Shown piece by piece: positions 7,948-43,688 of a DNA stretch of 64,000 nucleotides. Made by a program: the position numbers and the translations under genes. The notes beneath the pieces are model-generated. The model was not told the origin of the DNA, searched no databases, and saw only the letters and a list, made by a program, of their open reading frames with translations. The DNA comes from Pseudovibrio exalbescens (lineage in GTDB: Bacteria > Pseudomonadota > Alphaproteobacteria > Rhizobiales > Stappiaceae). The stretch's first letter is position 1. Every line of letters starts with the position of its first letter. The stretch spans positions 806,001 through 870,000 of the forward strand of contig NZ_JAQZAJ010000002.1 in NCBI RefSeq assembly GCF_028737195.1. Direction: 5' to 3'.

Positions 7948-8946
7948 GTGAAGAAAACAACTGCGATCTGTGCAACCCTGCTAGCAGGCTTGATGTCTAC
8001 TGCAGCCCTTGCTGAAACCATCAAGCCAGCCGTTGTCTACGACTTTGGCGGCCGAAATGACCGATCCTTCAACGAAGCTGCGTTCAATGGCGCGCAGGAG
8101 TTCAAGGAGCGCACCGGTATCAACTACCGCGACTTCGAGATTCAGAACCCATCCCAGCGTGAACAGGCTCTGCGTAACTTTGCGCGTCGTGGCATGGACC
8201 CAATCATCACCATCGGCTTTGCGCAGGCAGCCGCTCTTGAGAAAGTCGCGAAAGAGTTCCCTGACACGCGCTTTGCAATTGTAGATTCCGTTGTCGATCT
8301 GCCAAACGTGCGCTCAATCGTGTTCCGCGAAGAGCAGGGCTCCTACCTCGTTGGCATGCTGGCAGCGATGGCTTCTGAAACCGATACCATCAGCTTTGTG
8401 GGTGGTATGGATATCCCGCTGATCCGCAAATTCTCTTGTGGTTACAAGCAGGGTGCAAAGGCCGTTAACCCAGACATCGAAATCATTGAGAACATGACCG
8501 GCACCACCGGTGCCGCATGGACCGACCCAGTAAAGGGCGGCGAACTGGCACGTTCTCAGTTTGCACGTGACTCCGATGTTGTCTTCCACGCTGCTGGCGC
8601 TACTGGCATGGGCGTGCTTCAGGCTGCCGCCGACGAAGGGAAACTCGGCATTGGCGTGGATTCAAACCAGAACCACCTGCACCCGGGTCAGATCCTGACC
8701 TCCATGGTGAAGGCGGTAGACGTTGCAGTTGATGCAACCCTGACCGATGCGCAGGAAGGCAACTGGTCAACTGGTGTGCAGGTTATGGGTCTCGCCGAAA
8801 ACGGTGTGTCCTGGGCGCTGGACGACAACAACGCAGATCTGATCAACGATGAGATGAAGGCAGCTGTTGAAGCCGCCAAGCAGGACATCGTTTCCGGTAA
8901 GGTGGAAGTGCACGACTTCATGGTCGACAACACCTGCCCATTCTAA
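7948..8946 (+). CDS. BMP-family nucleoside ABC transporter substrate-binding protein
   Basis: A 332-residue periplasmic binding protein of the BMP/PnrA family, which binds purine and pyrimidine nucleosides. The signal peptide spans residues 1-22 (ending AALA); there is no lipobox cysteine, so it should be soluble. GGRNDRSFNEAAF at residues 34-46 corresponds to the conserved BMP nucleoside-binding segment. The start codon is GTG. A GTCCT/AGGAC repeat at 7925-7941 pairs the ribosome binding site and may dampen translation. It is followed by a strong hairpin and then the ATPase and permease genes. Confidence 0.93.
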   Translation: MKKTTAICATLLAGLMSTAALAETIKPAVVYDFGGRNDRSFNEAAFNGAQEFKERTGINYRDFEIQNPSQREQALRNFARRGMDPIITIGFAQAAALEKVAKEFPDTRFAIVDSVVDLPNVRSIVFREEQGSYLVGMLAAMASETDTISFVGGMDIPLIRKFSCGYKQGAKAVNPDIEIIENMTGTTGAAWTDPVKGGELARSQFARDSDVVFHAAGATGMGVLQAAADEGKLGIGVDSNQNHLHPGQILTSMVKAVDVAVDATLTDAQEGNWSTGVQVMGLAENGVSWALDDNNADLINDEMKAAVEAAKQDIVSGKVEVHDFMVDNTCPF

Positions 8947-9128: not shown

Positions 9129-10703
9129 GTGACCATCAGCTTGGACAATCAAAGTGTGAGGGAAGCTTCAACGCATGGCGTTGCGGCAATCGAGCTTAAA
9201 GGCATCAACAAGAGCTTTGGCCCGGTTCACGCTAACAAGGACATTGATCTGGTAGTCGGCAAGGGGTCCATTCACGGTATCGTGGGGGAGAATGGTGCTG
9301 GCAAATCAACATTGATGTCCATTCTCTACGGTTTCTATACGGCGGATACCGGTGACATCATCGTCGATGGGAAAACGGTCAAAATTCCGGATTCCAAGAC
9401 GGCCATTGAAGTGGGTATCGGCATGGTGCACCAGCACTTCATGCTGGTTGATCCATTCACCGTCGTTGAGAACGTCATGCTTGGCGCCGAAGGCGGTGCG
9501 ATGCTGTCGGAAGGCATCGCGCGGGTTCGAAAGGAACTCGGCCGACTGGCAGACGAGTATGACATGAAGATTGATCTCGACGCCGTGGTCGGTGAGCTGC
9601 CAGTTGGCTTGCAGCAGCGCGTCGAAATCCTGAAAGCGCTGTATCGCGGTGCCGACATTCTCATTCTGGATGAGCCTACCGGCGTTTTGACACCAGCAGA
9701 AGCGGATCACCTGTTCCGTATTCTCCGTGTGCTGCGCGATGAGGGCAAGACCATCCTGCTCATCACTCATAAACTGCGCGAAATCATGGACGTGACCGAT
9801 CAGGTTTCCGTCATGCGTCGCGGTGAAATGGTGGCAAGCCGAAAGACCGCTGAAACCTCCATGTCTGAGCTCGCAGAGCTGATGGTTGGCCGCAGCGTTC
9901 TTCTGGAAGTGAACAAGCAACCTGCTCAGCCGAAGGACGCACTCCTCAAAGTTGCAAACCTGAACGTGAAAGACGATCGTGGCGTTATGCGCGTCAAGAA
10001 CGTGTCACTTGAGGTCAAGGCAGGGGAAATTCTCGGTATTGCAGGTGTGTCCGGCAATGGTCAGTCTGAGCTGCTCAAGGCGCTTTCCGGTATTACACGC
10101 GCCGAAACCGGCTCCATGGAGTTGGTTGGCAACACCATCGACCTGACCAAGAACCACAGCTCCAGCGACTTTCGCGAGCTGGGCATGAGCCACGTGCCGG
10201 AAGATCGCCACCGCATGGGCTTGGTAAACGCTTTCTCAGAGTACGAAAACTCAATTCTCGGCTACCACCGCGAACAGAAGTACTCAAACGGCATGTTGCT
10301 CAACGTCTCTGGCATCCGCGAGGAAGCCAAGGAGCGGATGGAGAAGTATGACATTCGTCCGCGTGACACTGAGCTCAAGGCCGCCAAGTTCTCTGGTGGT
10401 AACCAGCAGAAAATCGTTCTGGCGCGCGAAATCGAATGCGACCCGGACGTGCTGCTGATTGGCCAGCCAACACGCGGTGTGGACATTGGCGCGATCGAAT
10501 ACATTCACAAGCGGATCATCGAGATGCGGGACGCCGGAAAGGCCGTGCTGCTGGTGTCCGTGGAGCTGGATGAAATTCGCTCACTGGCCGACCGGATTCT
10601 GGTGATGTTCGACGGCAACGTTGTCGGCGAACGCGGACCAGACGCAACTGAACAAGAGCTGGGTCTGCTGATGGCCGGCGTAACGGACGAGGCGGCAGAG
10701 TAA
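9129..10703 (+). CDS. Nucleoside ABC transporter, duplicated ATP-binding protein
   Basis: A 524-residue protein with two ABC ATPase domains, as in the NupA/RnsB/BmpB class that pairs with BMP binding proteins. The first domain has Walker A GENGAGKST (residues 53-61) and the Walker B ILDEPT. The second has a degenerate Walker A (GVSGNGQSE), the signature FSGGNQQK, and IGQPT where a canonical domain has DEPT. This asymmetry is normal in the family and implies one competent ATP site. The start is GTG, with GGAG eight bases upstream. The next permease begins 98 bases later. Confidence 0.93.
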   Translation: MTISLDNQSVREASTHGVAAIELKGINKSFGPVHANKDIDLVVGKGSIHGIVGENGAGKSTLMSILYGFYTADTGDIIVDGKTVKIPDSKTAIEVGIGMVHQHFMLVDPFTVVENVMLGAEGGAMLSEGIARVRKELGRLADEYDMKIDLDAVVGELPVGLQQRVEILKALYRGADILILDEPTGVLTPAEADHLFRILRVLRDEGKTILLITHKLREIMDVTDQVSVMRRGEMVASRKTAETSMSELAELMVGRSVLLEVNKQPAQPKDALLKVANLNVKDDRGVMRVKNVSLEVKAGEILGIAGVSGNGQSELLKALSGITRAETGSMELVGNTIDLTKNHSSSDFRELGMSHVPEDRHRMGLVNAFSEYENSILGYHREQKYSNGMLLNVSGIREEAKERMEKYDIRPRDTELKAAKFSGGNQQKIVLAREIECDPDVLLIGQPTRGVDIGAIEYIHKRIIEMRDAGKAVLLVSVELDEIRSLADRILVMFDGNVVGERGPDATEQELGLLMAGVTDEAAE

Positions 10704-10705
10704 TC

Positions 10706-10804
10706 ATGACCATCGCTATTCGTTACGACGTTCAGCAAGTGAACTCGCCAATTATTGACTGTGACAGTGGGGCGCCTGCCCCATTCAAGGGGGGCAAGCA
10801 ATGA
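10706..10804 (+). CDS. Possible 32-residue ORF bridging ATPase and permease genes
   Basis: An open frame starts two bases after the ATPase stop and ends in a TGA that overlaps the permease ATG (ATGA), a geometry typical of translational coupling. It begins MTIAIRYDV and has no recognisable family. The region also holds a 6-bp tetraloop hairpin (10768-10783). It could be a real small subunit, a coupling device or chance. Confidence 0.25.
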   Translation: MTIAIRYDVQQVNSPIIDCDSGAPAPFKGGKQ

Positions 10805-11904
10805 GCAAGGGGCAACTACCTCGCTGGGTAGACTTCGGTCTTCTTCCCGCGATCAACTTGATTGCTGCGTTTTTGGTCTCAGGTCTCGTGGTTATTCTCA
10901 TCGGGGAGAATCCACTTGAAGCCGTTAAGTGGCTTGTCTGGGGCGCTCTTGGATATGGGGAAGGCGTTGGCTTTACCCTGTTCTATGCAACAAACTTCAT
11001 CTTCACCGGTCTGGCCGTGGCGGTCGCATTCCATGCGGGTCTCTTCAACATTGGTGGTGAAGGTCAGGCCTACGTGGGCGGCCTCGGCGTTGCGCTCGCC
11101 TGTCTGGCCATGGACCAGTTCGTGCCTTGGTACGTCACGCTGCCCATGGCCATTATCGGCGGTGCTGCCTTTGGTGCCGGTTGGGCCTTCATCCCAGCCT
11201 ACCTTCAGGCTAAGCGCGGCTCCCACATCGTTATCACAACGATCATGTTCAACTTCATCGCCTCATCCTTGATGGTGTATCTGTTGGCCAACGTTTTGCG
11301 CCCAACCGGATCCATGCAGCCATCGACCCGTGGCTTTGAAGAGGGCGGACAGCTGCCACTGCTGCGTCACTTGTTCCCGGCCTTTGATCTGGGACAGTCT
11401 CCAGTAAACCTTGCGCTGTTCGTTGCCCTCATTGCCTGTGTGCTGGTCTGGGTTTTGATCTGGCGCACCAAGCTGGGCTATGAAATTCGCACATTCGGTG
11501 CCAACCCAAATGCTGCGGTTTACGCAGGGATCTCTCCCGTGCGCATCACCGTGGTCACCATGCTGATTTCCGGTGCTCTGGCAGGTCTCATGGGTATCAA
11601 CGAAGTGATGGGCGCGCAGGCACGTTTGCTGCTCGACTTCACCGCCGGTTATGGCTTTGTGGGCATTGCTGTGGCGCTTATGGGGCGCGGTCACCCAATC
11701 GGGATCATCCTCGCCTCCATTCTGTTCGGCATGCTCTACCAGGGCGGCGCGGAACTGGCCTTCGAAATCCCAACCATCACCCGTGACATGATCGTTGTCA
11801 TTCAGGCTCTGGTGATCCTGTTTGCGGGGGCTCTGGAGCACATGTTCCGTCCGGCTGTGGTGGCCTTTTTTGACCGGTTCGCCGGTGCAAAAGCTGTAGC
11901 GTAA
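10801..11904 (+). CDS. Nucleoside ABC transporter permease 1
   Basis: A 367-residue polytopic inner-membrane permease of the BPD_transp_2 family. It is rich in hydrophobic segments and carries the family hallmark NIGGEGQ near residue 82. A strong Shine-Dalgarno (AAGGGGGG) precedes the ATG. With the downstream permease it should form the heterodimeric channel of the BMP-type nucleoside importer. Ten bases separate its stop from the next gene, consistent with co-translation. Confidence 0.93.
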   Translation: MSKGQLPRWVDFGLLPAINLIAAFLVSGLVVILIGENPLEAVKWLVWGALGYGEGVGFTLFYATNFIFTGLAVAVAFHAGLFNIGGEGQAYVGGLGVALACLAMDQFVPWYVTLPMAIIGGAAFGAGWAFIPAYLQAKRGSHIVITTIMFNFIASSLMVYLLANVLRPTGSMQPSTRGFEEGGQLPLLRHLFPAFDLGQSPVNLALFVALIACVLVWVLIWRTKLGYEIRTFGANPNAAVYAGISPVRITVVTMLISGALAGLMGINEVMGAQARLLLDFTAGYGFVGIAVALMGRGHPIGIILASILFGMLYQGGAELAFEIPTITRDMIVVIQALVILFAGALEHMFRPAVVAFFDRFAGAKAVA

Positions 11905-11914
11905 GGAGGCGAAG

Positions 11915-12883
11915 ATGTTAGACGTTATCATTCTCGTACTCGATAGTACTCTTCGCCTGTCCACGCCACTTCTGTTTGCATGTCTGGCTGGCTTGTTCTC
12001 CGAACGCTCCGGTATTGTTGATATCGGTCTGGAAGGTAAGATGCTCGGCGGCGCGTTCGCTGCAGGTGCCGTGGCTTACTGGACCCAAGACCCTTGGCTC
12101 GGCCTGCTGGCTGCGATTTTCGTATCCGTTCTGCTGGCGCTGATCCATGGCTTTGCTTCCATCACAAACCGCGGCAACCAGGTTGTTGCCGGTGTGGCCA
12201 TCAACTTCCTCGCAGCTGGCTTGACCGTTCTTTTGGGACAGGCCTGGTTTGCTCAGGGCGGCCGTACCCCGCAGCTGGATATGGACTGGCGCTTTAGCCC
12301 AATCACGCTGCCATTTGCGGAGAGCATTCAGAATGTGCCATTCATTGGCCCAATCTATGCCGACCTTCTTTCTGGTCACAACATTCTGGTCTACGCCGCT
12401 TTCGTGGCTGTGCCTCTGACCTGGTGGGTTGTGTTCCGCACACGCTTTGGCCTGCGCCTGCGCGCGGTGGGTGAGAGCCCTCAAGCGGTTGATACAGCAG
12501 GTATCTCCGTTGCATGGCTGCGTTACCGGGCGGTTATCATTTGCGGTGCGCTCTGTGGTTTTGCCGGTGCCTATCTGGCGATTGCACAGTCCGCTGGCTT
12601 CATCAAGGACATGAGTGCAGGTAAAGGCTTTATCGCACTGGCTGCGCTGATCTTTGCCAAGTGGAAACCCGTGAACGCCATGTTCGCATGCTTGCTCTTT
12701 GGCTTCCTTGATGCGGTTGCCAACCTGATGCAGGGCCAGTCCATTCCGGGCGTTGGTGAAGTGCCGGTCCAGTTCTTCCAGGCTCTGCCATACATCCTGA
12801 CCGTTGTACTGCTGGCAGGCTTCATTGGCCGCGCAATTCCGCCCAAAGCTTCTGGTATTCCTTATGTGAAGGAGCGGACCTGA
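11915..12883 (+). CDS. Nucleoside ABC transporter permease 2
   Basis: A 322-residue polytopic permease, partner of the preceding one. It has the conserved IVDIGLEGKML near residue 35 and the NRGNQVVAGVAINFL segment typical of the second BMP permease. About eight to nine hydrophobic helices are visible. Its stop overlaps the cdd start (TGATG), so transport and cytidine deamination are translationally coupled. Confidence 0.93.
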   Translation: MLDVIILVLDSTLRLSTPLLFACLAGLFSERSGIVDIGLEGKMLGGAFAAGAVAYWTQDPWLGLLAAIFVSVLLALIHGFASITNRGNQVVAGVAINFLAAGLTVLLGQAWFAQGGRTPQLDMDWRFSPITLPFAESIQNVPFIGPIYADLLSGHNILVYAAFVAVPLTWWVVFRTRFGLRLRAVGESPQAVDTAGISVAWLRYRAVIICGALCGFAGAYLAIAQSAGFIKDMSAGKGFIALAALIFAKWKPVNAMFACLLFGFLDAVANLMQGQSIPGVGEVPVQFFQALPYILTVVLLAGFIGRAIPPKASGIPYVKERT

Positions 12884-13278
12884 TGAGCGCTTTTGAGAAA
12901 CTCTTCGACGAAGCTAAGGCGGCCCACGCGACCGCCTATGCACCCTACTCAAATTTCAAGGTGGGGGCCGCGCTCCTCACCGAAGACGGCAAGGTTGTTT
13001 CCGGTTGCAACGTAGAAAACGCGGCCTACCCGGAAGGAACCTGCGCCGAGGCTGGGGCTATTGCGGCCATGATCCGAGGCGGGAGCACCCGCATCAAGGA
13101 AGTGGTTGTTCTGGCTGATGCCGCTCTTTGCACCCCCTGTGGCGGCTGCCGCCAAAAACTCAAAGAATTTGCTGATGGGGATGTTCAAGTGCACGTGGCC
13201 AACCTCGAGGGCCTGCGAAAGACGTTCAAAGTAAGTGAGCTTTTGCCTGCCGGGTTTGAGCTTGTGAGCAGCGAGTAA
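12883..13278 (+). CDS. cdd: Cytidine deaminase
   Basis: A 131-residue homotetrameric-type cytidine/deoxycytidine deaminase producing uridine or deoxyuridine. Zinc ligands are Cys54 (in CAEAG, with the catalytic Glu56) and Cys86/Cys89 in PCGGC. The substrate motif GCNVEN is at residues 41-46. Length is typical of the short, tetrameric class. It overlaps the permease stop and precedes the nucleoside phosphorylase by ten bases. Its place after the importer fits channelling of imported cytidine into the uridine route. Confidence 0.95.
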   Translation: MSAFEKLFDEAKAAHATAYAPYSNFKVGAALLTEDGKVVSGCNVENAAYPEGTCAEAGAIAAMIRGGSTRIKEVVVLADAALCTPCGGCRQKLKEFADGDVQVHVANLEGLRKTFKVSELLPAGFELVSSE

Positions 13279-13288
13279 AGGAAAAGAA

Positions 13289-14095
13289 ATGAGCGGATTT
13301 GGTAAAGAATGTGCGGATGTTGTTCGCGCAGCCCGTTCTGGCACCTATAAGGTAGGCCTCATCCTGGGTTCCGGCCTTGGTTCTCTGGCCAGCGAAGTGG
13401 AAGATGCAACCCGTATTCCTTATACAAAGTTGCCTGAATTCCCGGTTTCCTCCGTAACGGCACATGCCAGTGAATTGGTTGCAGGTATGCTGGAAGGCGT
13501 GCCGGTGGTGATCCTGTCCGGCCGTGCGCACTACTATGAGAGTGGCAACCCTTCCATCATGCGCACGCCACTGGAAACCCTGAAGGAGCTGGGCTGCGAT
13601 ACTCTCATCGCAACGAACGCAGCAGGGTCTTTGCGGGACCACATCAAGCCCGGTTCTCCAATGCTGATCAACGATCACATCAACTGGTCCGGCCTTAACC
13701 CTCTGATTGGAGAGGAAGACGAAAGCCGCTTCCTCGACATGTCCACCGCCTACGATCCAGAGATCCGCGAAGCATTGAAGGCCGCTGCCAAGGATGTTGG
13801 CGAAGATCTGGAAGAGGGCGTTTACATGTGGTTCTCAGGCCCCTCTTTCGAAACACCTGCGGAAATCCGCATGTCTCAGGTTCTGGGTGCCGACGCCGTT
13901 GGCATGTCCACTGTTCCTGAAGTCATTCTGGCGCGCTTCCTCGGTATGAAGGTTGCTGCCATCTCTACCATCACCAACATGGGTGCAGGGCTTCAGGCAC
14001 ATGGTTTGTCGCATGATGAAACCAAGGAAATGGCCCCACTGGGTGCGGCGAAGATCAAGAAGATCCTTCGCGCCTACATGAAGTCCATCGCGTAA
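13289..14095 (+). CDS. Purine nucleoside phosphorylase (trimeric class)
   Basis: A 268-residue enzyme of the PNP/MTAP trimeric family that splits purine nucleosides with phosphate to base and (deoxy)ribose-1-phosphate. Visible signatures are GSGLG (27-31, phosphate), GRAHYYE, NAAGSL, GPSFETPAE (ribose and base pocket) and GMSTVPE. The length is normal. A PunA- or XapA-like base preference cannot be fixed from sequence alone. It sits between cdd and deoC in the operon, with 13 bases to the next gene. Confidence 0.92.
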   Translation: MSGFGKECADVVRAARSGTYKVGLILGSGLGSLASEVEDATRIPYTKLPEFPVSSVTAHASELVAGMLEGVPVVILSGRAHYYESGNPSIMRTPLETLKELGCDTLIATNAAGSLRDHIKPGSPMLINDHINWSGLNPLIGEEDESRFLDMSTAYDPEIREALKAAAKDVGEDLEEGVYMWFSGPSFETPAEIRMSQVLGADAVGMSTVPEVILARFLGMKVAAISTITNMGAGLQAHGLSHDETKEMAPLGAAKIKKILRAYMKSIA

Positions 14096-14108: not shown

Positions 14109-14888
14109 ATGAGTGAGACAGAACTGCAAGTGGCTGCCAAGCGCGCCCTTGGTCTGATTGATCTGACCAATCTGAATGATGACTGCACACCAGCGGACAT
14201 CGAGAAGCTGATTGAGCGCTCGAGCACACCACATGGGCATGTTGCTGCAATCTGCATTTATGCGCCATTCATCAAACAGGCTGCCGAGCTGCTGAAGGGC
14301 TCTCCGGTTCGCATCGCAACCGTGGTAAACTTCCCTCATGGCGGTGAAGACACACTGGCGGTGGTTAAGGAAACAGAAGCGGCATTGGCCGATGGCGCTG
14401 ATGAAATTGATCTGGTCATGCCTTATCGCGCCTTCATGGACGGTCGCCGGGGTTTTGCTGAAACCCAGATCTCCGAAGTGCGCAAGGTGATTGGCGAGCC
14501 AGCCTTGTTGAAAGTCATTCTGGAAACCGGCGAAATGCAGGATCCCCGTCTGATCCACGTCGCGTCGGAAATCGCGATCGCGCAGGGTGCTGACTTCATC
14601 AAGACGTCCACCGGCAAGGTTAAAGTGAACGCGACGCTCGAAGCTGCGGAAATCATGCTCAACGTGATCCGCGAAATGGGCAAGGAAAACCACCGCCCGG
14701 TTGGCTTCAAGCCAGCAGGCGGCATTCGCAGCGTGGAAGACGCGAAAAACTATCTCGATCTGGCAGATAAACTCATGGGTCAAAATTGGGTGTCTGCTGC
14801 AAGTTTCCGCTTTGGTGCCAGCGGCCTGCTGGATGCTGTATTGGCGGAAATCGAAGGTCGTACAAATCTGAGCACGGAGACCTACTAG
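14109..14888 (+). CDS. deoC: Deoxyribose-phosphate aldolase
   Basis: A 259-residue class I aldolase cleaving 2-deoxyribose-5-phosphate to acetaldehyde and glyceraldehyde-3-phosphate. The Schiff-base lysine is Lys165 in FIKTSTGK. The activating Lys201 in VGFKPAGG and the proton-relay Asp101 are both present. Length and residue numbering closely follow E. coli DeoC. It lies directly before deoA with one base between stop and start, so they are certainly co-transcribed. Confidence 0.96.
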   Translation: MSETELQVAAKRALGLIDLTNLNDDCTPADIEKLIERSSTPHGHVAAICIYAPFIKQAAELLKGSPVRIATVVNFPHGGEDTLAVVKETEAALADGADEIDLVMPYRAFMDGRRGFAETQISEVRKVIGEPALLKVILETGEMQDPRLIHVASEIAIAQGADFIKTSTGKVKVNATLEAAEIMLNVIREMGKENHRPVGFKPAGGIRSVEDAKNYLDLADKLMGQNWVSAASFRFGASGLLDAVLAEIEGRTNLSTETY

Positions 14889-14889
14889 T

Positions 14890-16206
14890 ATGCTGCCCCA
14901 GGAAATCGTCCGCCTAAAACGTGATGGTGGAACTCTCAATCCAGATCACATTCAGCTGTTCGTGAACGGCATCACCGATGGTGGTGTGACTGAAGGACAG
15001 GTTGCGGCTCTGGCCATGGCCATCTTCTTTCGTGGACTGAGCATTGACGAGCGTGTAGCGCTGACCCTTGCCATGCGAGACAGCGGTGATGTTCTGGACT
15101 GGTCCGACATCGAAGCGCCAATCGTTGACAAGCACTCCACCGGCGGGGTGGGCGACAACGTTTCCCTGATGCTCGCTCCGGCACTTGCTGTTTGCGGTGC
15201 CGCAGTTCCAATGATCTCCGGCCGCGGCCTTGGTCATACCGGTGGCACCCTCGACAAGCTGGAGAGCATTCCAGGCTACACCGCAAAGCCTGACAACACG
15301 CTGTTCCGCAAAGTGGTGAAGGAAGTCGGCTGCGCCATCATCGGCCAGACCGCCAATCTCGCCCCAGCAGACAAGCGCTTCTACGGCATCCGTGATGTGA
15401 CCGCGACAGTTGAGAGTATTGACCTCATCACCGCGTCCATTCTGTCAAAGAAGCTGGCTGCCGGCCTTGAAACACTGGTTCTCGACGTGAAGTGGGGAAC
15501 AGGTGCGTTCATGGGCTCTTATGAGGAAGCCAAAGCGTTGGCTGAAAGCCTCGTATTGGTGGCTAACGGTGCCGGTCTCAAGACAACCGCGCTTCTGACG
15601 GACATGAACGAGTCTCTGGCTTCCGCAGCTGGTAACGCCGTTGAAGTCCAAAACGCGGTGGACTTCCTGAAGGGCACACACATCGACAACCGTCTATGGG
15701 ATGTAACTGTCGCCATCGGTGGTGAAGCTCTGGCAACTGCGGGTCTTGCAGCCAATCCGGAAGAAGGCCGCGCGAACATGTCTCGTGCCTTCGAAAGTGG
15801 CGAAGCCGCAGAGGTGTTTGGCCGCATGGTAACCGCCCTTGGTGGCCCGGCAGACTTCATGGACAAGCCTGAAGTGTACCTGCCGAAGGCCCCTCTTGAG
15901 GTGCCTGTTTATGCTCCAGAAGCAGGCATCGTGACCAAGGTCGATGCACGCACCGTAGGTGTTGCAGTTGTTGAACTTGGGGGTGGCCGCACCGCACCTG
16001 AAGATGAAGTCGATCCAGCTGTTGGCATCATCCACATCGCAGGCGTTGGTACCACCGTCGACAGCGACAACCCGATTGGCATCATCCACGCGCAAAACGA
16101 AGATCAGGTGCGCCGTGCGCAAGAAGTGCTGCTCAGTGCTTACACTGTCGGTGAGGCTTCTGAGGTTGCCGAGTTTGACACTGTTCGAGACCGCATCGCC
16201 AAGTAG
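14890..16206 (+). CDS. deoA: Thymidine phosphorylase
   Basis: A 438-residue pyrimidine nucleoside phosphorylase acting on thymidine and deoxyuridine. The phosphate-binding KHSTGGVGDN is at residues 81-90, followed by the GRGLGHTGGTLDKLE segment. Length matches E. coli DeoA. It releases thymine or uracil and deoxyribose-1-phosphate. It is followed by a 108-base gap with a hairpin (16242-16283) before deoB. Confidence 0.96.
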   Translation: MLPQEIVRLKRDGGTLNPDHIQLFVNGITDGGVTEGQVAALAMAIFFRGLSIDERVALTLAMRDSGDVLDWSDIEAPIVDKHSTGGVGDNVSLMLAPALAVCGAAVPMISGRGLGHTGGTLDKLESIPGYTAKPDNTLFRKVVKEVGCAIIGQTANLAPADKRFYGIRDVTATVESIDLITASILSKKLAAGLETLVLDVKWGTGAFMGSYEEAKALAESLVLVANGAGLKTTALLTDMNESLASAAGNAVEVQNAVDFLKGTHIDNRLWDVTVAIGGEALATAGLAANPEEGRANMSRAFESGEAAEVFGRMVTALGGPADFMDKPEVYLPKAPLEVPVYAPEAGIVTKVDARTVGVAVVELGGGRTAPEDEVDPAVGIIHIAGVGTTVDSDNPIGIIHAQNEDQVRRAQEVLLSAYTVGEASEVAEFDTVRDRIAK

Positions 16207-16314: not shown

Positions 16315-17535
16315 ATGCCCCGCGCAATACTGTGTGTACTAGACAGCTTTGGTATCGGCGCTGCAGACGATGCAGAGAAATTTGGTGATGTTGGCTCTGA
16401 TACTCTAGGCCATATTGCGGACGCATGTGCGGAAGGCAAGGGCGACAAGGAGGGCCTTCGCAAAGGGCCGCTAGCACTGCCAAATCTGGACCGCATGGGT
16501 CTGGGAGCCGCAGCCAAGCTCTCCACCGGCAAAGATGTTGCTGGCCTTGATTTTGCCGGAGAGCCAGAGGGGCTCTGGGGCTATGCTCAGGAACTCTCAA
16601 AGGGCAAGGATACCCCTTCCGGCCACTGGGAAATCGCCGGTGTGCCAGTAGAGTTCGAGTGGGGCTACTTTCCGAATGAAGTGCCATGCTTCCCACAGGA
16701 ACTGCTCGACAAGATTTACGAGCGCAACAACCTTGAGGGGGCTCTGTGCTTGGCACATGGGTCCGGAACGGTTGTTATTGATGAGTTTGCAGAAGAACAC
16801 ATCAAGACCGGCATGCCGATCTTCTATACATCCGCAGACAGTGTTTTCCAGATCGCAGCGCATGAAGAGACCTTTGGCCTCGAGCGTTTGCTGAAACTGT
16901 GCGAAGACGTCCGTCAGCTGCTGGATGACTACAACATCGGCCGTGTGATTGCTCGCCCATTCGTTGGCTCGGTTGAGAGCGGCTTTGAGCGTACCGCGAA
17001 CCGCCGTGACTATTCTGTTCTGCCACCGGCTCCAACCGTTCTGGATCGTCTGAAAGACGCTGGCCGCGAAGTCATTGGCGTTGGCAAGATCTCTGACATT
17101 TTCGCCCACCAGGGTGTGACGAAGCTCCTTAAGGGCGCCGGTAACGATCAACTCTTCGAAAAGACACTGGAAGCCATGGAACTGGCCAAGGATGGTGACT
17201 TGGTGTTCTCCAACTTCGTTGATTTCGACATGCTCTACGGGCACCGCCGTGATGTGCCTGGTTATGCCGCTGCTCTGGAGCACTTCGATAGACGTCTGCC
17301 GGAAATGATCGAGGCAATGAAAGAGGGCGACCTGCTTGTCCTCACCGCGGATCATGGCTGTGACCCAACCTGGCGCGGCACGGATCACACACGTGAACAC
17401 GTGCCGTTGTTGGCGTTGGTCAAAGGTCAAAAGGGCGGCGCGATCGGTGTGCGCAATTCTTTTGCCGATATTGGTGAAACCATTGCCAAGTTCCTTGGCG
17501 TTGAGCAGGGCAAGGTCGGCGTCTCCTTCCTTTAA
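16315..17535 (+). CDS. deoB: Phosphopentomutase
   Basis: A 406-residue alkaline-phosphatase-fold phosphopentomutase interconverting (deoxy)ribose-1- and 5-phosphates. A metal-binding Asp lies in the N-terminal VLDSFGIG (Asp10). The C-terminal [19 protein letters not shown] supplies the remaining Mn ligands. It links the phosphorylases to deoC and the pentose phosphate pool. A GAAGG Shine-Dalgarno precedes the start. The gap downstream, to add, holds two hairpins. Confidence 0.96.
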
Positions 17536-17706: not shown

Positions 17707-18711
17707 ATGATACCGAAGCCACCTGTTGTGCCACGCGCCGAGTTGCACTGCCATATGGAAGGGGCGGCGCCACCATCATTGGTGATACAACTGGCGGAGC
17801 GCTATGGCGTTGCGCTGGACGGCCTACTGGACGCAAATGGCAACTACAGCTGGCATGATTTTACGACCTTCTTGAAAACATATGATGTGGCAAGCGCCTT
17901 GTTTCGCTCGCCTGAAGACTTCACCCTTCTTGCCGAGACATACTTCGGCATGCTGGCAGCAGAAGGGGCCATATACGGCGAGGTCTTCATCTCTCCCGAT
18001 CACGCGGTTCAATCGGGTTTGACCTACAAAGCCTATATGGACGCGATCGGCGAAGGCATCATGCGGGCCAATGAAGCCACTGGCATTGAAGGCCGCATGA
18101 TCTCCACTGGCGTTCGCCATTACGGGGTGAAGGCGGTGGAAATGGCGGCTTTGACGACCGTCAACAACCCGCATCCGCTTCTGACCGGCTTTGGCTTGGC
18201 GGGTGATGAGAGAGAAGGTCACCCTTCCAATTACCAGAAGGCCTTCAAGATTGCTCAAGAGGCAGGCTTGGGTCTGACCGCCCACGCTGGTGAGTTTGGT
18301 GGTCCTGAAAGCGTTAAGGGAGTCCTGGACTTCCTCCATGTGACGCGCATTGGGCATGGCGTGCGCTCTGTCGAAGATCCGGCGTTGGTGCAGCGCATCG
18401 TGGAAGAGGGCGTAACGCTTGAAGTATGCCCCGGTTCCAACATTGCGCTTGGTGTGTACTCGAACCTGCGCTTCCATCCGGTCAACATTCTGCGTCAGGC
18501 AGGGGTCAAGATCACGCTGAGTTCTGATGATCCGCCGTTCTTCCGGACAACCCTGGGTCACGAGTACTCTGAGACCTCACGGGTGTTTGGCTGGGATCGC
18601 GCCATTCAGAAAGAGCTGACAGCCAACGCCATCAAAGCCGCCTTCTGCGACGACGACACAAAGGCACGTTTGTTCCAGCAGCTTGAAGAGGCGACACGGG
18701 ATACGAACTAA
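17707..18711 (+). CDS. add: Adenosine deaminase
   Basis: A 334-residue metallo-hydrolase converting (deoxy)adenosine to (deoxy)inosine. The zinc-binding HxH is His14-x-His16 in ELHCHMEG. A TAHAGE motif supplies the third His and the catalytic Glu, and SSDDPPFF supplies the zinc and catalytic Asp residues. GAGAGG upstream serves as ribosome binding site. Together with the phosphorylase it routes adenosine to hypoxanthine. It precedes the URC1-like gene by about 87 bases with no obvious terminator. Confidence 0.95.
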   Translation: MIPKPPVVPRAELHCHMEGAAPPSLVIQLAERYGVALDGLLDANGNYSWHDFTTFLKTYDVASALFRSPEDFTLLAETYFGMLAAEGAIYGEVFISPDHAVQSGLTYKAYMDAIGEGIMRANEATGIEGRMISTGVRHYGVKAVEMAALTTVNNPHPLLTGFGLAGDEREGHPSNYQKAFKIAQEAGLGLTAHAGEFGGPESVKGVLDFLHVTRIGHGVRSVEDPALVQRIVEEGVTLEVCPGSNIALGVYSNLRFHPVNILRQAGVKITLSSDDPPFFRTTLGHEYSETSRVFGWDRAIQKELTANAIKAAFCDDDTKARLFQQLEEATRDTN

Positions 18712-18798: not shown

Positions 18799-20061
18799 AT
18801 GGAAAGTGGAGTTAAACGACCAACACACATTCGGCTCTCAACCCATCCGGGTGCGCAGGATCCTTCGCCCTACAAGCTTAAGTGGGGTGAGGTTGATCCC
18901 CAACAGCGCGGGCCAGTGATCGCCAGCCCAAACCAGCCGGAAAACCGAAACACCATTGGTGTTCACGGGGGCTCGTATTCCCTTTACAAAGCGCTCGCCG
19001 TTTCCTCCGGGAGTCTCGATCCAGACCGTCGGCCGGACTACAACAACACCCATCCAATGGTCGAAATCGGTCCATACCCGCAATGGTCGGAGCCGGGAAA
19101 GATCGTGTCTCTCGATCCGTTTGGCGCGATGACAGCCGACCTGTTCGGCGATCTGATTGCAAAGGGTGTGGACATTCGGCCGACCATCGCCATCACCAAA
19201 GCAAAGCTGGATATGCCGGAGCTGAAAACAGCGATTGCTGCGGGAGCCTTGAAGGTTGATGGCGCTATCGTCAACGCTCGAGGAGAGGTGAGTGTCACCA
19301 AAGCGGCCATTGATCCGGTCTGGCACCTTCCGGGAATTGCAGCGCGGTTTGGTGTTGAAGAAGATGTACTGCGCCGCACGCTGTTTGAGCAGACAGGCGG
19401 CATGTATCCCGACCTCATCACGCGCTCTGATCTGGAGGTGTTCCTTCCGCCCATCGGGGGCACCACACTCTATGTGATTGGCGATGTCGAAGGGCTGACC
19501 GCAACGGACGGTTCCGTCACCTGTAGAGTGCATGACGAATGCAATGGATCAGACGTTTTTGGGTCTGACATTTGCACCTGTCGCCCGTATCTGCTGCACG
19601 GTCTTGTTGAATCCATTCAAACCGCCCAAGCTGGTGGTACGGGTCTGATCATCTACAATCGGAAAGAAGGCAGAGCACTGGGCGAGGTGACCAAATTCCT
19701 CGTCTACAACGCTCGCAAGCGGCAGGAAGGCGGAGATTCCGCTGCAACCTATTTCGCTCGCACGGAGTGTGTGGCAGGCGTTCAGGATGCGCGCTTTCAG
19801 GAATTGATGCCCGATGTGTTGCACTGGCTCGGGATAACTCGCATTGGCCGGTTCATTTCAATGTCAGACATGAAATACAATGCTCTGATAGAATCCGGTA
19901 TTTCTATCGATGAGCGTGTCGCATTGCCAGATGAGCTGATTCCAGCCGATGCTCAGGTGGAAATGGAGGCCAAGAAGGCCGCAGGTTACTTCAGTAATGC
20001 GCCTGCACCTTCTGGTGATGAACTCAAACAGATCCACGGTCGGTCAATCGATGACTATTGA
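18799..20061 (+). CDS. URC1-like GTP cyclohydrolase II homologue (uracil catabolism)
   Basis: A 420-residue protein. The C-terminal half resembles GTP cyclohydrolase II, with the zinc set Cys248-x10-Cys259-x-Cys261 and RKEGRALGEV (288-297) where RibA has RQEGRGIGL. An N-terminal region of about 200 residues is absent from RibA. This layout matches URC1, defined in the yeast Lachancea kluyveri as needed for the URC route of uracil degradation. There is no riboflavin gene nearby. Its last 11 bases overlap the URC4-like gene, and upp follows. I infer action on a uracil nucleotide rather than GTP. The start has no good ribosome binding site, so a few N-terminal residues are uncertain. Confidence 0.85.
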   Translation: MESGVKRPTHIRLSTHPGAQDPSPYKLKWGEVDPQQRGPVIASPNQPENRNTIGVHGGSYSLYKALAVSSGSLDPDRRPDYNNTHPMVEIGPYPQWSEPGKIVSLDPFGAMTADLFGDLIAKGVDIRPTIAITKAKLDMPELKTAIAAGALKVDGAIVNARGEVSVTKAAIDPVWHLPGIAARFGVEEDVLRRTLFEQTGGMYPDLITRSDLEVFLPPIGGTTLYVIGDVEGLTATDGSVTCRVHDECNGSDVFGSDICTCRPYLLHGLVESIQTAQAGGTGLIIYNRKEGRALGEVTKFLVYNARKRQEGGDSAATYFARTECVAGVQDARFQELMPDVLHWLGITRIGRFISMSDMKYNALIESGISIDERVALPDELIPADAQVEMEAKKAAGYFSNAPAPSGDELKQIHGRSIDDY

Positions 20062-21292
20062 TAGTAAAGAGTCTGATGCTCTGTCCCTGTTGAATGCGGG
20101 AGCAGTACGTCAACGCGCACACACGCTTTTCGATCTTGGCATAAAGGGGGAGCTGGAGCATTTCACAGTGGACATGAGCCGCTTGGCAGAAGCGGCCAGA
20201 CGCACGATGGCAGCCACTGAAAATGCTTACCCCGATATGCAAATCCCGTTTCACGCTCGGTGGCGTCACTTCGAGGCAGGCGGGGTTGACCGCTGGGCGA
20301 TGCTGGCAGGCGCGCGTCGCTTCTCCGACGTGCGGGGCATGGGCAGAGCCGCGTTTGATCTGGCGATACTGTCCGTTCTGATGGATGCGGGGGCCGGACC
20401 TGATTGGTCTTTCCACGAAGCCGTTACCGACGAAAACTATAGTCGCTCGGAAGGCTTGGCCATAGCTTCCCTGTTGATGTTCTCCGGCGGCATGTTCTCC
20501 GGCAGTCCGCTGGATCCGTTGCGGGCAGATGCAGGTGAGTTATTCCGTGTTGATGAAGATGAAGTGCGCGAAGGTCTGCAGGTCTCTGAAACGAACCCGA
20601 TCGTGGGGCTGAAGGAGCGGGCAGCCCTTCTTAAAAGCCTTGGAGAGGCGGTATCCCTGAGGCCCGACTTGTTCGGGACAATGGACGAGCCCCGCCCGGG
20701 TGGTTTGTTTGATGTCCTGTTTGATGAGGGGCAGGCCAAACCATTGCCAGCACCCCGTATCCTTGAAGTCCTGCTGGATGGTCTTGGGCCTATCTGGCCG
20801 GGCCGGGAGGAGATCGACGGAGTTGGCTTGGGCGACACATGGCGACATTCCAAAATTGTAACCGAAGACAAGACCAATAATCTCATGCCGTTCCACAAGC
20901 TGAGCCAATGGATGGCGTATTCGTTGGTGGAGCCGCTGGTTTGGGCTGGGGTTGAGGTGGTTGATCTGGATGGACTGACCGGCCTTGCAGAATACCGCAA
21001 TGGCGGTTTGTTCATCGATACCGGTGTGCTCAAGCTGAAGGATGAAAGCAACCTTCTGAAGAGCCATGGGGTGGACAGTGAGCTCATCGTGGAGTGGCGT
21101 GCTCTCACGGTTGCGCTTCTGGACAAGTTGGCCGACTGGATCCGTACCGACCTTGGCGTCAACGCTGAGCAACTGCCCCTGGCCTGTGTACTTGAGGGTG
21201 GCACGTGGGCTGCCGGTCGGCAGATTGCTCGGGAAAAACGTCCCGGAGGGGAACCTCCATTGACCATAATCAGTGATGCCACCGTTTTTTAA
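20051..21292 (+). CDS. URC4-like DUF1688 protein (uracil catabolism)
   Basis: A 413-residue protein of the DUF1688 / URC4 (URG3) family, recognised from the N-terminal LNAGAVRQRAH and the FHARWRHFEAGGVDRW segment. URC4 in yeast is required downstream of URC1; its exact chemistry is not settled, and ribosylurea has been reported as an intermediate. I chose the ATG at 20051 because homology begins there and it overlaps the URC1-like stop by 11 bases, a strong sign of translational coupling. The upp gene follows after 124 bases, with a hairpin in the gap. Confidence 0.85.
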   Translation: MTIDSKESDALSLLNAGAVRQRAHTLFDLGIKGELEHFTVDMSRLAEAARRTMAATENAYPDMQIPFHARWRHFEAGGVDRWAMLAGARRFSDVRGMGRAAFDLAILSVLMDAGAGPDWSFHEAVTDENYSRSEGLAIASLLMFSGGMFSGSPLDPLRADAGELFRVDEDEVREGLQVSETNPIVGLKERAALLKSLGEAVSLRPDLFGTMDEPRPGGLFDVLFDEGQAKPLPAPRILEVLLDGLGPIWPGREEIDGVGLGDTWRHSKIVTEDKTNNLMPFHKLSQWMAYSLVEPLVWAGVEVVDLDGLTGLAEYRNGGLFIDTGVLKLKDESNLLKSHGVDSELIVEWRALTVALLDKLADWIRTDLGVNAEQLPLACVLEGGTWAAGRQIAREKRPGGEPPLTIISDATVF

Positions 21293-21305
21293 TGGCACGG
21301 CACTG

Positions 21306-21338
21306 GACAGAGGCGTGATGGTGAGTCACAAGCCTGTC
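21306..21338 (+). other. Hairpin between the URC4-like gene and upp
   Basis: An interrupted stem (GACA..GGC..GTGA pairing TCAC..GCC..TGTC) lies in the 124-base gap. There is no T-run. It may tune upp expression, but the evidence is weak. Confidence 0.35.
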
Positions 21339-21416
21339 TAAATGAAGAGAATTCAGTCTGCATGTGCTGCTTTCATAAGTCACCGCCGCCCTGCAGAATA
21401 AAACAATGAGGTAAAG

Positions 21417-22046
21417 ATGCCTGGCGCAACCGTAATTGACCACCCGCTCGTTCAGCACAAACTCACCCACATGCGCATGAAGGAAACTTCCACGCAGGGC
21501 TTCCGCCGTCTGCTGCGTGAGATTTCCCTGCTGCTGTGCTATGAAGTGACCCGTGACCTTGAGCTGGTCAATGCATCCATCGATACGCCAGTCTCCGAAA
21601 TGAGCGCGCCAGTTCTGGCGGGCAAGAAGCTCGTGTTTGCGTCAATCCTGCGTGCAGGTAACGGCCTGCTTGAAGGCATGCTGGAACTCATCCCGTCTGC
21701 CCGCGTTGCGCACATTGGTCTTTACCGTGACCCCAAGACCCTGAATGCGGTCGAATACTACTTCAAGGCACCGGCGGATATGGACGAGCGTCTGGTGATC
21801 GTTGTTGACCCGATGCTGGCAACCGCGAACTCTGCCATCGCTGCTGTTGAGCGCTTGAAGCAGCGCGGTGCGAACAAGATGTGTTTTGTGTGTCTTCTGG
21901 CCGCACCTGAAGGTGTTCAGCGGTTCAACGAAGCCCATCCAGATGTACCAATCTATACGGCTGCAGTGGACGAAAAGCTCGACGAAAAGGGCTACATCGT
22001 TCCAGGTCTTGGCGATGCTGGCGACCGCATGTACGGCACAAAATAA
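21417..22046 (+). CDS. upp: Uracil phosphoribosyltransferase
   Basis: A 209-residue UPRTase making UMP from uracil and PRPP. The PRPP loop reads [10 protein letters not shown] (residues 131-140), a variant of the more usual DPMLATGGS. The uracil-binding PGLGDAGDR lies near residues 196-204. AGGT precedes the ATG. In the URC pathway an UPRTase (URC6 in yeast) primes uracil for URC1, so its position right after the URC1/URC4 pair fits a catabolic as well as a salvage role. A clear terminator follows. Confidence 0.93.
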
Positions 22047-22059
22047 CATCATGAAATGG

Positions 22060-22090
22060 AAGCCCGGCCTTAGTGTCGGGCTTTCTTTTA
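22060..22090 (+). terminator. Terminator after upp
   Basis: AAGCCCG / CGGGCTT stem with a 10-base loop, followed by TCTTTT. It closes the upp transcript and separates it from the TrpF-like gene. Confidence 0.8.
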
Positions 22091-22140: not shown

Positions 22141-22818
22141 ATGGGGCGAACCATGATTTCCAACGCCGGGCGGACCCGCATGAAGGTCTGCTGTATTTCG
22201 TCGTTCGAAGAGGCGCAGATGGCCGTGGCTTGCGGTGCAGATGCTGTTGGCTTGGTATCAAAGATGCCTAGCGGGCCAGGCGTGATCAGCGATAGCCTGA
22301 TCTACGAAATAGCGCAGATTATCTCGCCGCCAGTCGCAACGTTTCTGCTCACCAGCGAGGAAAAAGCCGACTCTATTGCTGATCATCTGGTGCATTCTGG
22401 TGCGAACACGGTGCAGATCGTAAGCCATGTCGATCCCTCTGAGCATGAACGGTTGCGCAAGAAGCTGCCGCGTGGCCTCAAGGTGGTTCAGGTCGTGCAT
22501 GTGGAAGACGAGTACGCTGTGGAGCTGGCCCAAGATTATGCGCCCTATGTGGATGCGCTGCTTCTGGACTCAGGCAACCCCTCTGAAAATGAGCTAGGCG
22601 GAACAGGTCGCATCCATGACTGGACCCATAGCAAAGCCATTGTGGAGAGCGCAGCAGCCCCTGTATTCTTGGCAGGCGGTTTGACGCCCGAGAACGTGGG
22701 TGAAGCCGTCAAAACGGTTGGGCCGTTCGCGGTCGATGTGTGTTCGGGCGTGCGTACCAACGGCAAGCTGGATCCAGAAAAGCTGGCGGCGTTCTATCAG
22801 GCCCTCTCTGTCGCTTGA
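22141..22818 (+). CDS. Divergent TrpF-like (phosphoribosylanthranilate isomerase fold) protein
   Basis: A 225-residue TIM-barrel protein of the TrpF family. It keeps the catalytic pair: Cys17 in KVCCIS (TrpF KICGI) and Asp143 in LLLDS. It also keeps GGTGRIHDW and AGGLTPENV. It has lost the SxR segment whose Arg (Arg36 in Thermotoga TrpF) contacts the anthranilate carboxylate; here the region reads PSGPGV. The terminal SSGVE has become CSGVR. No other trp gene is near; neighbours are upp and ribokinase. An N-phosphoribosyl substrate from pyrimidine breakdown is my inference. Starts at 22153 or 22180 are also possible. Confidence 0.7.
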   Translation: MGRTMISNAGRTRMKVCCISSFEEAQMAVACGADAVGLVSKMPSGPGVISDSLIYEIAQIISPPVATFLLTSEEKADSIADHLVHSGANTVQIVSHVDPSEHERLRKKLPRGLKVVQVVHVEDEYAVELAQDYAPYVDALLLDSGNPSENELGGTGRIHDWTHSKAIVESAAAPVFLAGGLTPENVGEAVKTVGPFAVDVCSGVRTNGKLDPEKLAAFYQALSVA

Positions 22819-22948: not shown

Positions 22949-23866
22949 ATGATCGTTGTTCTGGGTTCAATCAATCTTGATCTTGTCGTTGCTGTAGAGC
23001 GCTTGCCAGTGGCTAGTGAAACGGTTGTTGGCCCGGATCATCAATATTTTGCCGGCGGAAAGGGCGGAAATCAGGCCTTTGCCGCTCGCATGGCAGGCTC
23101 AGAAACCCGTATGGTCGGAGCAGTTGGGTCTGATCTGTTTGGCGAGCCCGCACTGGTGAACCTCAAGTCTGCTGGTGTGGATGTGCGCGGCGTGCGGGTT
23201 CTGGACGGAGCCACAGGTCTTGCCATGATCGGTGTTGATGCGGCCGGTGAGAACCAGATTATTGTGGCAAGCGGCGTGAACAACCGTGTACAAGCTGAAT
23301 GGCTTGATGATGTTCTGCATGAAGGCGATACGCTGCTTCTGCAGATGGAAGTTCCTTCCCATGTAACCGCCAAGGCCATCGAAATTGCAAAGCTGAAAGG
23401 CGCGCGTGTAGTCTTGAACCCAGACCCCGCGACCAATCCGGCTGTCTCCGAGCTTGTGGAAGCCTCTGACGTAATCGTGGCGAGCCGCAAGGAAGCAGCG
23501 GCACTGTCTCGCTTGAACGGCTATCCGGAAGAGCCCGAGGAGTTCATCAACGCGCTGGCTCAGCCCGGCCGGGCAATCATTGTGACCCTTGGCAACGACG
23601 GTGCGATTGCCCATGACGGCGAAAAGTTTATTGGTCACATCCCGCCTGCACCCGTAGAGCCAATCGATACAACCGGTGCTGGAGATGCGTTTGTTGGCGC
23701 GCTGGTGGCAGCCCTCGACCGCGGGTCTGATCTGAAGCGCGCGCTGTTTGAAGCAAGCGCTGCAGGCGGGCTTGCGTGCACGCGGACCGGCGCTCAGACC
23801 AGCGCCCCAACGGGGTCAGAGATCAAGCGTGTTGCAGATCAGTTGGAAGCAACCACTGAGTTCTGA
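22949..23866 (+). CDS. rbsK: Ribokinase
   Basis: A 305-residue PfkB-family sugar kinase. The N-terminal GSINLDLVV and GGKGGNQAFAA motifs are ribokinase signatures, and DTTGAGDAFVG near residues 249-259 holds the catalytic Asp and anion hole. It phosphorylates ribose to ribose-5-phosphate. In this setting it could recover free ribose released from nucleosides or from URC intermediates. No ribose transporter is nearby, which supports an internal source of ribose. The start follows a terminator, suggesting independent expression. Confidence 0.92.
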   Translation: MIVVLGSINLDLVVAVERLPVASETVVGPDHQYFAGGKGGNQAFAARMAGSETRMVGAVGSDLFGEPALVNLKSAGVDVRGVRVLDGATGLAMIGVDAAGENQIIVASGVNNRVQAEWLDDVLHEGDTLLLQMEVPSHVTAKAIEIAKLKGARVVLNPDPATNPAVSELVEASDVIVASRKEAAALSRLNGYPEEPEEFINALAQPGRAIIVTLGNDGAIAHDGEKFIGHIPPAPVEPIDTTGAGDAFVGALVAALDRGSDLKRALFEASAAGGLACTRTGAQTSAPTGSEIKRVADQLEATTEF

Positions 23867-23904: not shown

Positions 23905-24432
23905 ATGCAACGCTATCTGATTGTCCTTGCGTTGGCGGTTGTTGCCGCAGTCTTTGGCCCTGATTTATTGCAGAGGCATCTCGGACTGAACGAGCGTGGG
24001 TCTGAAGACAGAACAGCTTCGACAACCGATGCGGACAAACCCCAAAAACAGATGAGCAAGACCATCGTGTTGAAGGCCGATGGTCGGGGTCATTTTGTGG
24101 CGTCCATTCGCATCAACGGAAAGCCGTCAGAAGCGTTGGTGGACACCGGTGCCACATTTGTCGCGATGCCAATGAAGCTCGCTCGGCGCTCAGGCATCAA
24201 TGTGGCGCCGAATGACTTCACCGCAGACGCTGAAACGGCCAACGGCCGAATAAAGTTCGCACCTGTTACAATCGATCGGCTGGACGTGGCTGGTGTGCGC
24301 ATTCGCAACGTTCAAGCGGGTGTGGTTCCGGATGATGCGCTGTCGACCGTATTGCTGGGCATGTCAGCTGTTAGCCGCCTAGGGACTGTGGAGCTGAAAG
24401 ACGGAAGTCTTGTAATCAGGCACCCTCGGTAA
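23905..24432 (+). CDS. Membrane-anchored retropepsin-like aspartic protease
   Basis: A 175-residue protein of the TIGR02281 clan AA family. An N-terminal hydrophobic segment (about residues 1-18) anchors it or directs export, followed by a polar linker. A single aspartic-protease half then carries the active-site motif Asp80-Thr-Gly-Ala in LVDTGATFVAM. A second conserved segment, VLLGMSAVSRLG, lies near the C terminus. Proteases of this type act as dimers in the periplasm; the substrate is unknown. A strong GGGAGGA Shine-Dalgarno precedes the start. It follows rbsK by 38 bases, probably co-transcribed. Confidence 0.85.
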   Translation: MQRYLIVLALAVVAAVFGPDLLQRHLGLNERGSEDRTASTTDADKPQKQMSKTIVLKADGRGHFVASIRINGKPSEALVDTGATFVAMPMKLARRSGINVAPNDFTADAETANGRIKFAPVTIDRLDVAGVRIRNVQAGVVPDDALSTVLLGMSAVSRLGTVELKDGSLVIRHPR

Positions 24433-40165: not shown

Positions 40166-40169
40166 TCAC

Positions 40170-41618: not shown

Positions 41619-41629
41619 GGGTCGGAGAG

Positions 41630-42364: not shown

Positions 42365-42376
42365 AAAGGCAACGCA

Positions 42377-43666: not shown

Positions 43667-43688
43667 GCAGTGTAGGGAGCGCGTATAA

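Follow-up and report, generated by a model that had tools for sequence, protein, structure and literature searches.

The window analysed here is a 64,000-nucleotide stretch of DNA (C11:806001-870000 of genome G000, which is 4.39 Mb in size). Three genes on its forward strand, URC1/UrcA (18799..20061, 420 aa), URC4 (DUF1688; 20051..21292) and upp (uracil phosphoribosyltransferase; 21417..22046), are read as a bacterial URC (uracil catabolism) unit, and to this reading, together with the whole route proposed for it from sequence and predicted structures, we assign a probability of roughly 0.8. In the proposed route, Upp would convert uracil and phosphoribosyl pyrophosphate to uridine monophosphate (UMP), kinases of the cell would raise UMP to uridine triphosphate (UTP), and URC1, as a zinc cyclohydrolase, would carry out two successive hydrolyses on the uracil ring of UTP, so that a urea group stays on the ribose phosphate and a C3 fragment, for which malonate semialdehyde is the likeliest candidate, is released. 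URC4 would then cut the N-glycosidic bond to yield urea and ribose (or ribose phosphate), and a urease encoded elsewhere in the genome would convert urea to ammonia. Genes upstream of the unit would import nucleosides, deaminate cytidine and phosphorolyse nucleosides to uracil and pentose phosphate. We infer every reaction in this organism, foremost that of URC4, and likewise the phosphorylation state of the substrate, the identity of the C3 product and the flux through the upstream genes.

A first-pass annotation, made from the sequence alone, had named the first two genes URC1 and DUF1688/URC4, and profile searches bear this out, with 709.7 bits for NF005536 (cut-off 403) and 476 bits for PF07958 (cut-off 25); Upp was recognized by TIGR01091 (268 bits, cut-off 208) and by NF001097 above its cut-off. 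The zinc set, the long N-terminal extension of URC1, the overlap and the upp gene that follows were all found in place. The ATG of URC4 occupies 20051-20053 and the stop codon of URC1 (20059-20061) falls inside the start of URC4, so that the overlap is exactly 11 bases. Gene neighbours were then counted by tblastn in a public set consisting of the best 80 of 137 confirmed URC4 loci, which by record title span alpha-, beta- and gammaproteobacteria, Bdellovibrio-like bacteria, Myxococcus, cyanobacteria, Gordonia and Holophagaceae. In 76 of these 80 loci the gene immediately before URC4, on the same strand, is URC1, and in 78 the gene immediately after URC4 is upp; among the four loci without an adjacent URC1, two are at contig ends and two (L007 and L062) carry the gene at another place in the genome. 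Of 249 genomes of the order, 61 have URC4; URC1 is present in 55 of these 61 and in none of the others, the remaining six having URC4 alone. Of the 60 genomes with URC4 other than our own, 59 yielded loci that were fetched (G114 was left out), some of which end early. The nearest named relative, as judged by URC4, is Pseudovibrio exalbescens (L006, 81%). Because of the profile scores and the conserved gene order, chance is excluded as an explanation for the URC identification.

The same three protein families make up URC1/URC4/URC6 of Lachancea kluyveri and urg1-urg3 of fission yeast, where the genes are clustered, and in the yeast papers they likewise lead from uracil to urea through an uracil phosphoribosyltransferase, a cyclohydrolase-like protein and a DUF1688 protein. 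The unit of the window differs in being bacterial, in having overlapping genes and in being joined to a nucleoside importer and phosphorylases; moreover, the urea outlet is a urease here and urea amidolyase in the yeast, and some bacteria, unlike the yeast, have an MmsA-like dehydrogenase adjoining URC1.

URC1 is, on its sequence, a member of the UTP cyclohydrolase family and separate from RibA. All of the 28 aligned sequences have the zinc set C248-x10-C259-x-C261, and the N-terminal extension of URC1 corresponds to a GTP_CH_N domain (PF12471, 270 bits). The best PDB matches by sequence are 7EJ3 (2.8e-166) and 7EEV (2.9e-166), to which URC1 is 61% identical over nearly the full length, with no difference of kind seen from these structures of UrcA. 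Foldseek with a predicted model of URC1 (mean predicted local distance difference test score, pLDDT, 78.3) also placed 7EEV/7EJ3 first, both titled UTP cyclohydrolase (TM-score 0.88/0.93), and E. coli GTP cyclohydrolase II (GCHII) next at 20% identity. RibA and RibBA share with URC1 the PF00925 catalytic domain, the zinc cysteines and a D-x-R motif; in contrast to them, URC1 carries the extra GTP_CH_N domain, scores far under the RibA cut-offs (45.7 bits for TIGR00505, cut-off 205.85) and forms a separate clade. In a tree of 62 catalytic domains, the 16 URC1 rows were split by a branch with support 100/100 from the other 46 RibA/RibB rows (32 intact RibA-type and 14 degenerate domains), the program warning of an unsettled bootstrap and of a meeting of long branches, URC1 with one RibA row. 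URC1 as RibA is rejected on the clade and the missed cut-offs, and the clustering with RibA that the first-pass annotation had named as a refutation was thus not seen. The further statement that the bacterial chemistry is poorly characterised does not hold for URC1, since URC1-type enzymes are already characterised through 7EEV/7EJ3 and the literature on UrcA. Zhang et al. (ACS Catal 2021), cited in PMC12507026, is said to be a paper on the UTP cyclohydrolase UrcA. The action of UrcA on UTP is in print, and PMC9499338 describes two hydrolytic steps performed by UrcA on its own.

The NCBIfam name of NF005536, 'GTP cyclohydrolase II', is misleading for URC1, and the more so here because the genome shows no other intact GCHII domain. 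That name, and the presence in G000 of only two PF00925 matches, of which URC1 alone retains the zinc cysteines while the second, a RibB protein (C22:161270, L002), has a degenerate GCHII-like domain, could suggest that URC1 serves as the riboflavin GTP cyclohydrolase II of the organism, instead of or besides acting as a uracil-nucleotide cyclohydrolase. This is very improbable, given that URC1 falls in its own clade with a solved relative titled UTP cyclohydrolase, that it is missing from 194 of the 249 order genomes and, in that sample, never found without URC4, and that four genomes of the same family (G041, G116, G146 and G237) lack URC1 and have a degenerate GCHII domain only, so that the riboflavin gap exists without URC1. 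The RibB protein itself (C22:161270-161731, L002) consists of a helix-turn-helix-like start (by eye), a 3,4-dihydroxy-2-butanone 4-phosphate synthase part and the GCHII-like domain without zinc cysteines. An intact RibA was not found in G000 by PF00925, and the four same-family genomes (L199-L202) are similar, leaving the first riboflavin step without an assigned gene in G000 and these four relatives.

As to URC4, the predicted structure suggests that it is probably an N-ribosyl hydrolase of the Qng1 superfamily (DNA-glycosylase-like) that would free urea from (phospho)ribosylurea by means of a Lys/Glu pair, in bacteria as well as fungi, being linked to queuosine salvage by descent and repurposed or decaying where URC1 has been lost. 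The model (pLDDT 92.9) has Qng1 as its sole significant PDB match (7U07, 7U91 and 7UGK), with about 310 residues sharing the fold, a match that covers most of the protein and lies well above unrelated chains. With residue numbering starting at codon 20054, the motifs F280-H-K282-L-S-Q285, T309-x-L311-x-E313-Y314-R315 and E347-W-R349-A-L-T352 of URC4 stand in the same order as F197-Y-K199-R-A-Q202, T227-x-F229-A-D231-Y232-K233 and E-I-R-A-A-T of 7U07, the spacing from lysine to acid being 31 residues in URC4 and 32 in Qng1. All 43 of the URC4 sequences compared share K282, Q285, T309, E313, Y314, R315, E347 and R349, and T352 is also among the invariant alignment columns. Two Qng1 mutant structures, 7U5A and 7ULC, are changed at K199 and D231, respectively, which we take to be the catalytic residues of Qng1. 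By motif and hhalign register, not by coordinates, K199 would correspond to K282 and D231 to E313, and the predicted active site of URC4 is K282, E313 and R315. URC4 (DUF1688) and Qng1 (DUF2419) share a predicted fold in which a lysine and an acidic residue are conserved in corresponding motifs, whereas URC4 is 15-19% identical to Qng1, approximately 70-90 residues longer and has a far smaller expected substrate. No statement of a Qng1 fold for URC4 was found in the literature searched, most subscription journals lying outside its coverage, and none of the listed papers on Qng1 and queuosine mentions DUF1688. Where DUF1688 does appear in print, one paper has it among mutated genes and another as a domain within a functionally uncharacterised protein, and one URC4 paper mentions a ribosyl-urea degrading enzyme. 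Searches of genomes for Qng1 with PF10343 gave 0 of 150 and 0 of 24, with the controls silent too, so nothing is concluded from them.

The predicted active site agrees with the pattern of residue retention and loss observed in the sequences. Among 139 loci, K282, E313 and R315 are complete in 129 of 129 with URC1 at the locus and in 5 of 10 without; counted by genome, they are complete in 131 of 131 loci with URC1 in the genome versus one of six without. The 131 take in L007 and L062, in which the residues are kept, and both groups leave out L032 and L054, which also keep the residues and are cut at contig ends with no room for URC1. At least one of the three residues was lost in L106, L107, L139, L149 and L153, all from genomes without URC1; L139 is altered at E313 only (to Cys), and L153 has Asp at position 313, as in Qng1. 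L106 and L107 belong to the family of the window, L139, L149 and L153 to a second family, and L164, likewise from a genome without URC1, to a third. The URC4 frames of these genomes are open. In L106 and L107 (G116 and G237), the nucleoside genes and upp are kept and the DUF1688 protein is strongly altered (41% and 38% identity); an opposite-strand gene for a major facilitator superfamily transporter lies between add and the altered URC4 in both, joined in L107 by a 3-hydroxyisobutyrate-dehydrogenase-like gene. In L164, URC4 follows genes for a PfkB sugar kinase and a phosphotriesterase-family protein, with ABC transporter genes downstream (by eye), a setting that would possibly suit a hydrolase freeing ribose from a different N-riboside.

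The outlets of the route were also searched for. A urease alpha gene is present in the genome of the window (C23:285217), away from the URC unit, and urease alpha was matched in 48 of 55 genomes with URC1 versus 117 of 194 without, relatedness not being corrected for in these counts. Of the 139 loci, 28 have a gene for an MmsA-like dehydrogenase immediately before URC1 and on its strand, a count that omits L113 (a 30% match on the opposite strand). Six of the 28 were scanned with NCBIfam, and TIGR01722 (methylmalonate-semialdehyde dehydrogenase, cut-off 448.5 bits) was the best model for all six, its cut-off being passed by L081, L047, L028 and L067 and just missed by L022 (442.2) and L084 (425.9). 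No mmsA match was found within the window, the rest of its genome not being searched. In 28 of the 139 loci upp is immediately followed by a uridine kinase gene, and in three more such a gene is upstream on the other strand; of five of these 31 genes scanned, all matched NF004018 (uridine kinase) above cut-off and one TIGR00235, the candidate of L084 having been left out for a stop inside its extended frame. By title, the loci with either neighbour are mostly from Bdellovibrio-like bacteria. Because of these two kinds of neighbours, malonate semialdehyde would be the C3 product and uridine would enter the route as UMP. The yeast pathway papers name the C3 product as 3-hydroxypropionate or its acid; the MmsA-like gene beside URC1 in some other bacteria points to oxidation of malonate semialdehyde rather than to 3-hydroxypropionate.

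Several observations weigh against the proposed route and the function predicted for URC4. Searches of the PDB with the URC4 sequence or profile gave no meaningful match and none to Qng1, and a Pfam scan of URC4 at E<=10 gave PF07958 alone and no PF10343. In hhalign, the URC4 profile against two Qng1 segments gave the register 280-359 with P 0.02 and a probability of 2.3%, a score equalled by 4 of 300 column shuffles. As the support from sequence is weak by itself, the fold carries the claim of a URC4-Qng1 relationship. The acidic residue is Glu in URC4 and Asp in Qng1. D298 is named as an active-site residue of Qng1 in PMC11592518; its candidate in URC4 by spacing, E381, is Glu in 33 of 43 sequences and Gln in 10, and W385 (43 of 43) is a candidate by spacing for a further counterpart. 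L164 (G247) retains the K/E/R set in a genome without URC1, and, as the loci without URC1 come from three families, the losses number at least two and are not five independent ones. The ratio of nonsynonymous to synonymous substitution rates (dN/dS) for URC4 without URC1 is not clearly unlike that of control pairs, some dS values being saturated, so that decay and a new role are not separated. In addition, seven of the 55 genomes with URC1 have no urease match, and the fate of the UTP phosphates is not accounted for by the proposed route.

It could also be argued that URC4 works at a prior step, for instance as an amidase or another ring-opening enzyme, with the Qng1 fold as a shared scaffold only. 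Function does not follow from a shared fold, and the Glu in place of Asp and the conserved regions of URC4 beyond the shared motif (approximately residues 59-73 and 107-139) would fit such a role. We regard this as quite unlikely, in view of the invariance in URC4 of the residues matching those altered in the Qng1 structures 7U5A and 7ULC, and of the accounts in the literature: the yeast papers assign URC4 to the step from ribosylurea to urea, and the two hydrolytic steps of UrcA (PMC9499338) would leave the N-glycosidic bond as the last cut before urea. An N-ribosyl hydrolase acting at this last step is the function we prefer for URC4.

The nucleoside genes of the window all lie upstream of URC1 on the same strand, physically joined to the URC unit as the first-pass annotation had described. 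This island begins with a BMP-type ABC importer, comprising a substrate-binding protein (7948..8946; PF02608, 216 bits, cut-off 24.1; its nearest NCBIfam model, ABC_BMP_B6, below cut-off at 96 of 400 bits), an ATP-binding protein with two ABC cassettes (9129..10703; PF00005, two stretches) and two permeases (10801..11904 and 11915..12883; PF02653, 121.5 and 131.8 bits). It is followed by cdd, cytidine deaminase (12883..13278; PF00383 and PF08211), pnp, purine-nucleoside phosphorylase (13289..14095; NF006054, 342.7 bits, cut-off 218), deoC, deoxyribose-phosphate aldolase (14109..14888; TIGR00126, 211.6 bits, cut-off 117.3), deoA, of the pyrimidine nucleoside (thymidine) phosphorylase family (14890..16206; PF00591, PF02885 and PF07831), deoB, phosphopentomutase (16315..17535; TIGR01696 and NF003766 above cut-off) and add, of the adenosine deaminase family (17707..18711; PF00962, 274.5 bits). 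Matches to deoA, cdd and pnp within about 10 kb of URC4 were found in the same nine of the 59 order loci (URC1 is present in six of the nine) and in two layouts, upstream on the same strand (L106, L107, L117, L119 and L142) or downstream on the opposite strand (L122, L131, L144 and L153). In the public set the complete island was found in L006 only, and a Piscinibacter locus (L085) has a BMP importer and a purine nucleoside phosphorylase near the URC genes on the other strand.

An adjacency of island and URC unit by chance, the two not forming one route, would be in keeping with the 50 of 59 order loci in which the island was not seen, some of them ending early, and with its completeness in one of 80 public loci. 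Chance is nevertheless unlikely, since several families of the order have the island close to URC4, in two layouts, an importer and a phosphorylase are also found near the URC genes in Piscinibacter, and in the window all the genes concerned are on one strand. The joint of island and URC unit is real and recurrent in some families, and it is not general to URC units. Of the co-occurrences that the first-pass annotation had asked to be surveyed, that with upp is widespread and that with the importer and its island is confined to some lineages. Its single complete nucleoside route is supported in part, by the joined genes and the urease of the genome, and would not be general, the island being lineage-specific.

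A terminator-like hairpin with a T run (22066..22082, forward strand) lies directly 3' of upp and is a possible end of the unit; such sites number 29 in 19.1 kb versus 19.6 in shuffles, which makes it weak by itself. A ribokinase-like PfkB kinase gene (22949..23866, forward strand; TIGR02152, 261.8 bits, below the cut-off of 299.65), with matches close to URC4 at 11 of the 59 order loci, encodes a possible acceptor of the released ribose. Between the two is a second gene resembling phosphoribosylanthranilate isomerase (22141-22818; PF00697, below the TrpF cut-offs), a much better PF00697 match being at C11:261776. This diverged trpF-like gene was considered as a URC enzyme acting on phosphoribosylurea and rejected as a fixed part of the unit. 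It has matches at E<=1e-25 in 24 of 249 order genomes (one partial), 18 of which have URC1; among 20 loci fetched with about 1.5 kb of flank each, it lies beside upp only in the window and in L175, in nine other order genomes it is near a ribokinase and an ABC ATPase, and in the window the terminator-like site separates it from upp. A retropepsin-like aspartyl protease gene (23905-24432; PF13975) follows, 14 of the 59 order loci having a match to it in the vicinity of URC4, and further away (40131-45197) are genes of a Tad-type pilus or secretion system (secretin-like, CpaE/MinD-like and TadA-family ATPase), all below NCBIfam cut-offs.

In summary, the unit is an ordinary representative of an established pathway, in gene surroundings that are uncommon for it, with a new and testable mechanism proposed for its enzyme of unknown function. 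The literature names four modes of pyrimidine degradation, among them URC, whose last dedicated enzyme, URC4, is still classed as a domain of unknown function. With a mechanism drawn from the fold and specific residues to target, a single assay could test the URC4 step, in fungi as in bacteria. The neighbourhoods with an MmsA-like dehydrogenase, a uridine kinase or an importer suggest how whole nucleosides may be turned into nitrogen and carbon. If true, the mechanism would tie the recycling of uracil nitrogen to the queuosine-salvage family, which is related in fold to DNA glycosylases.

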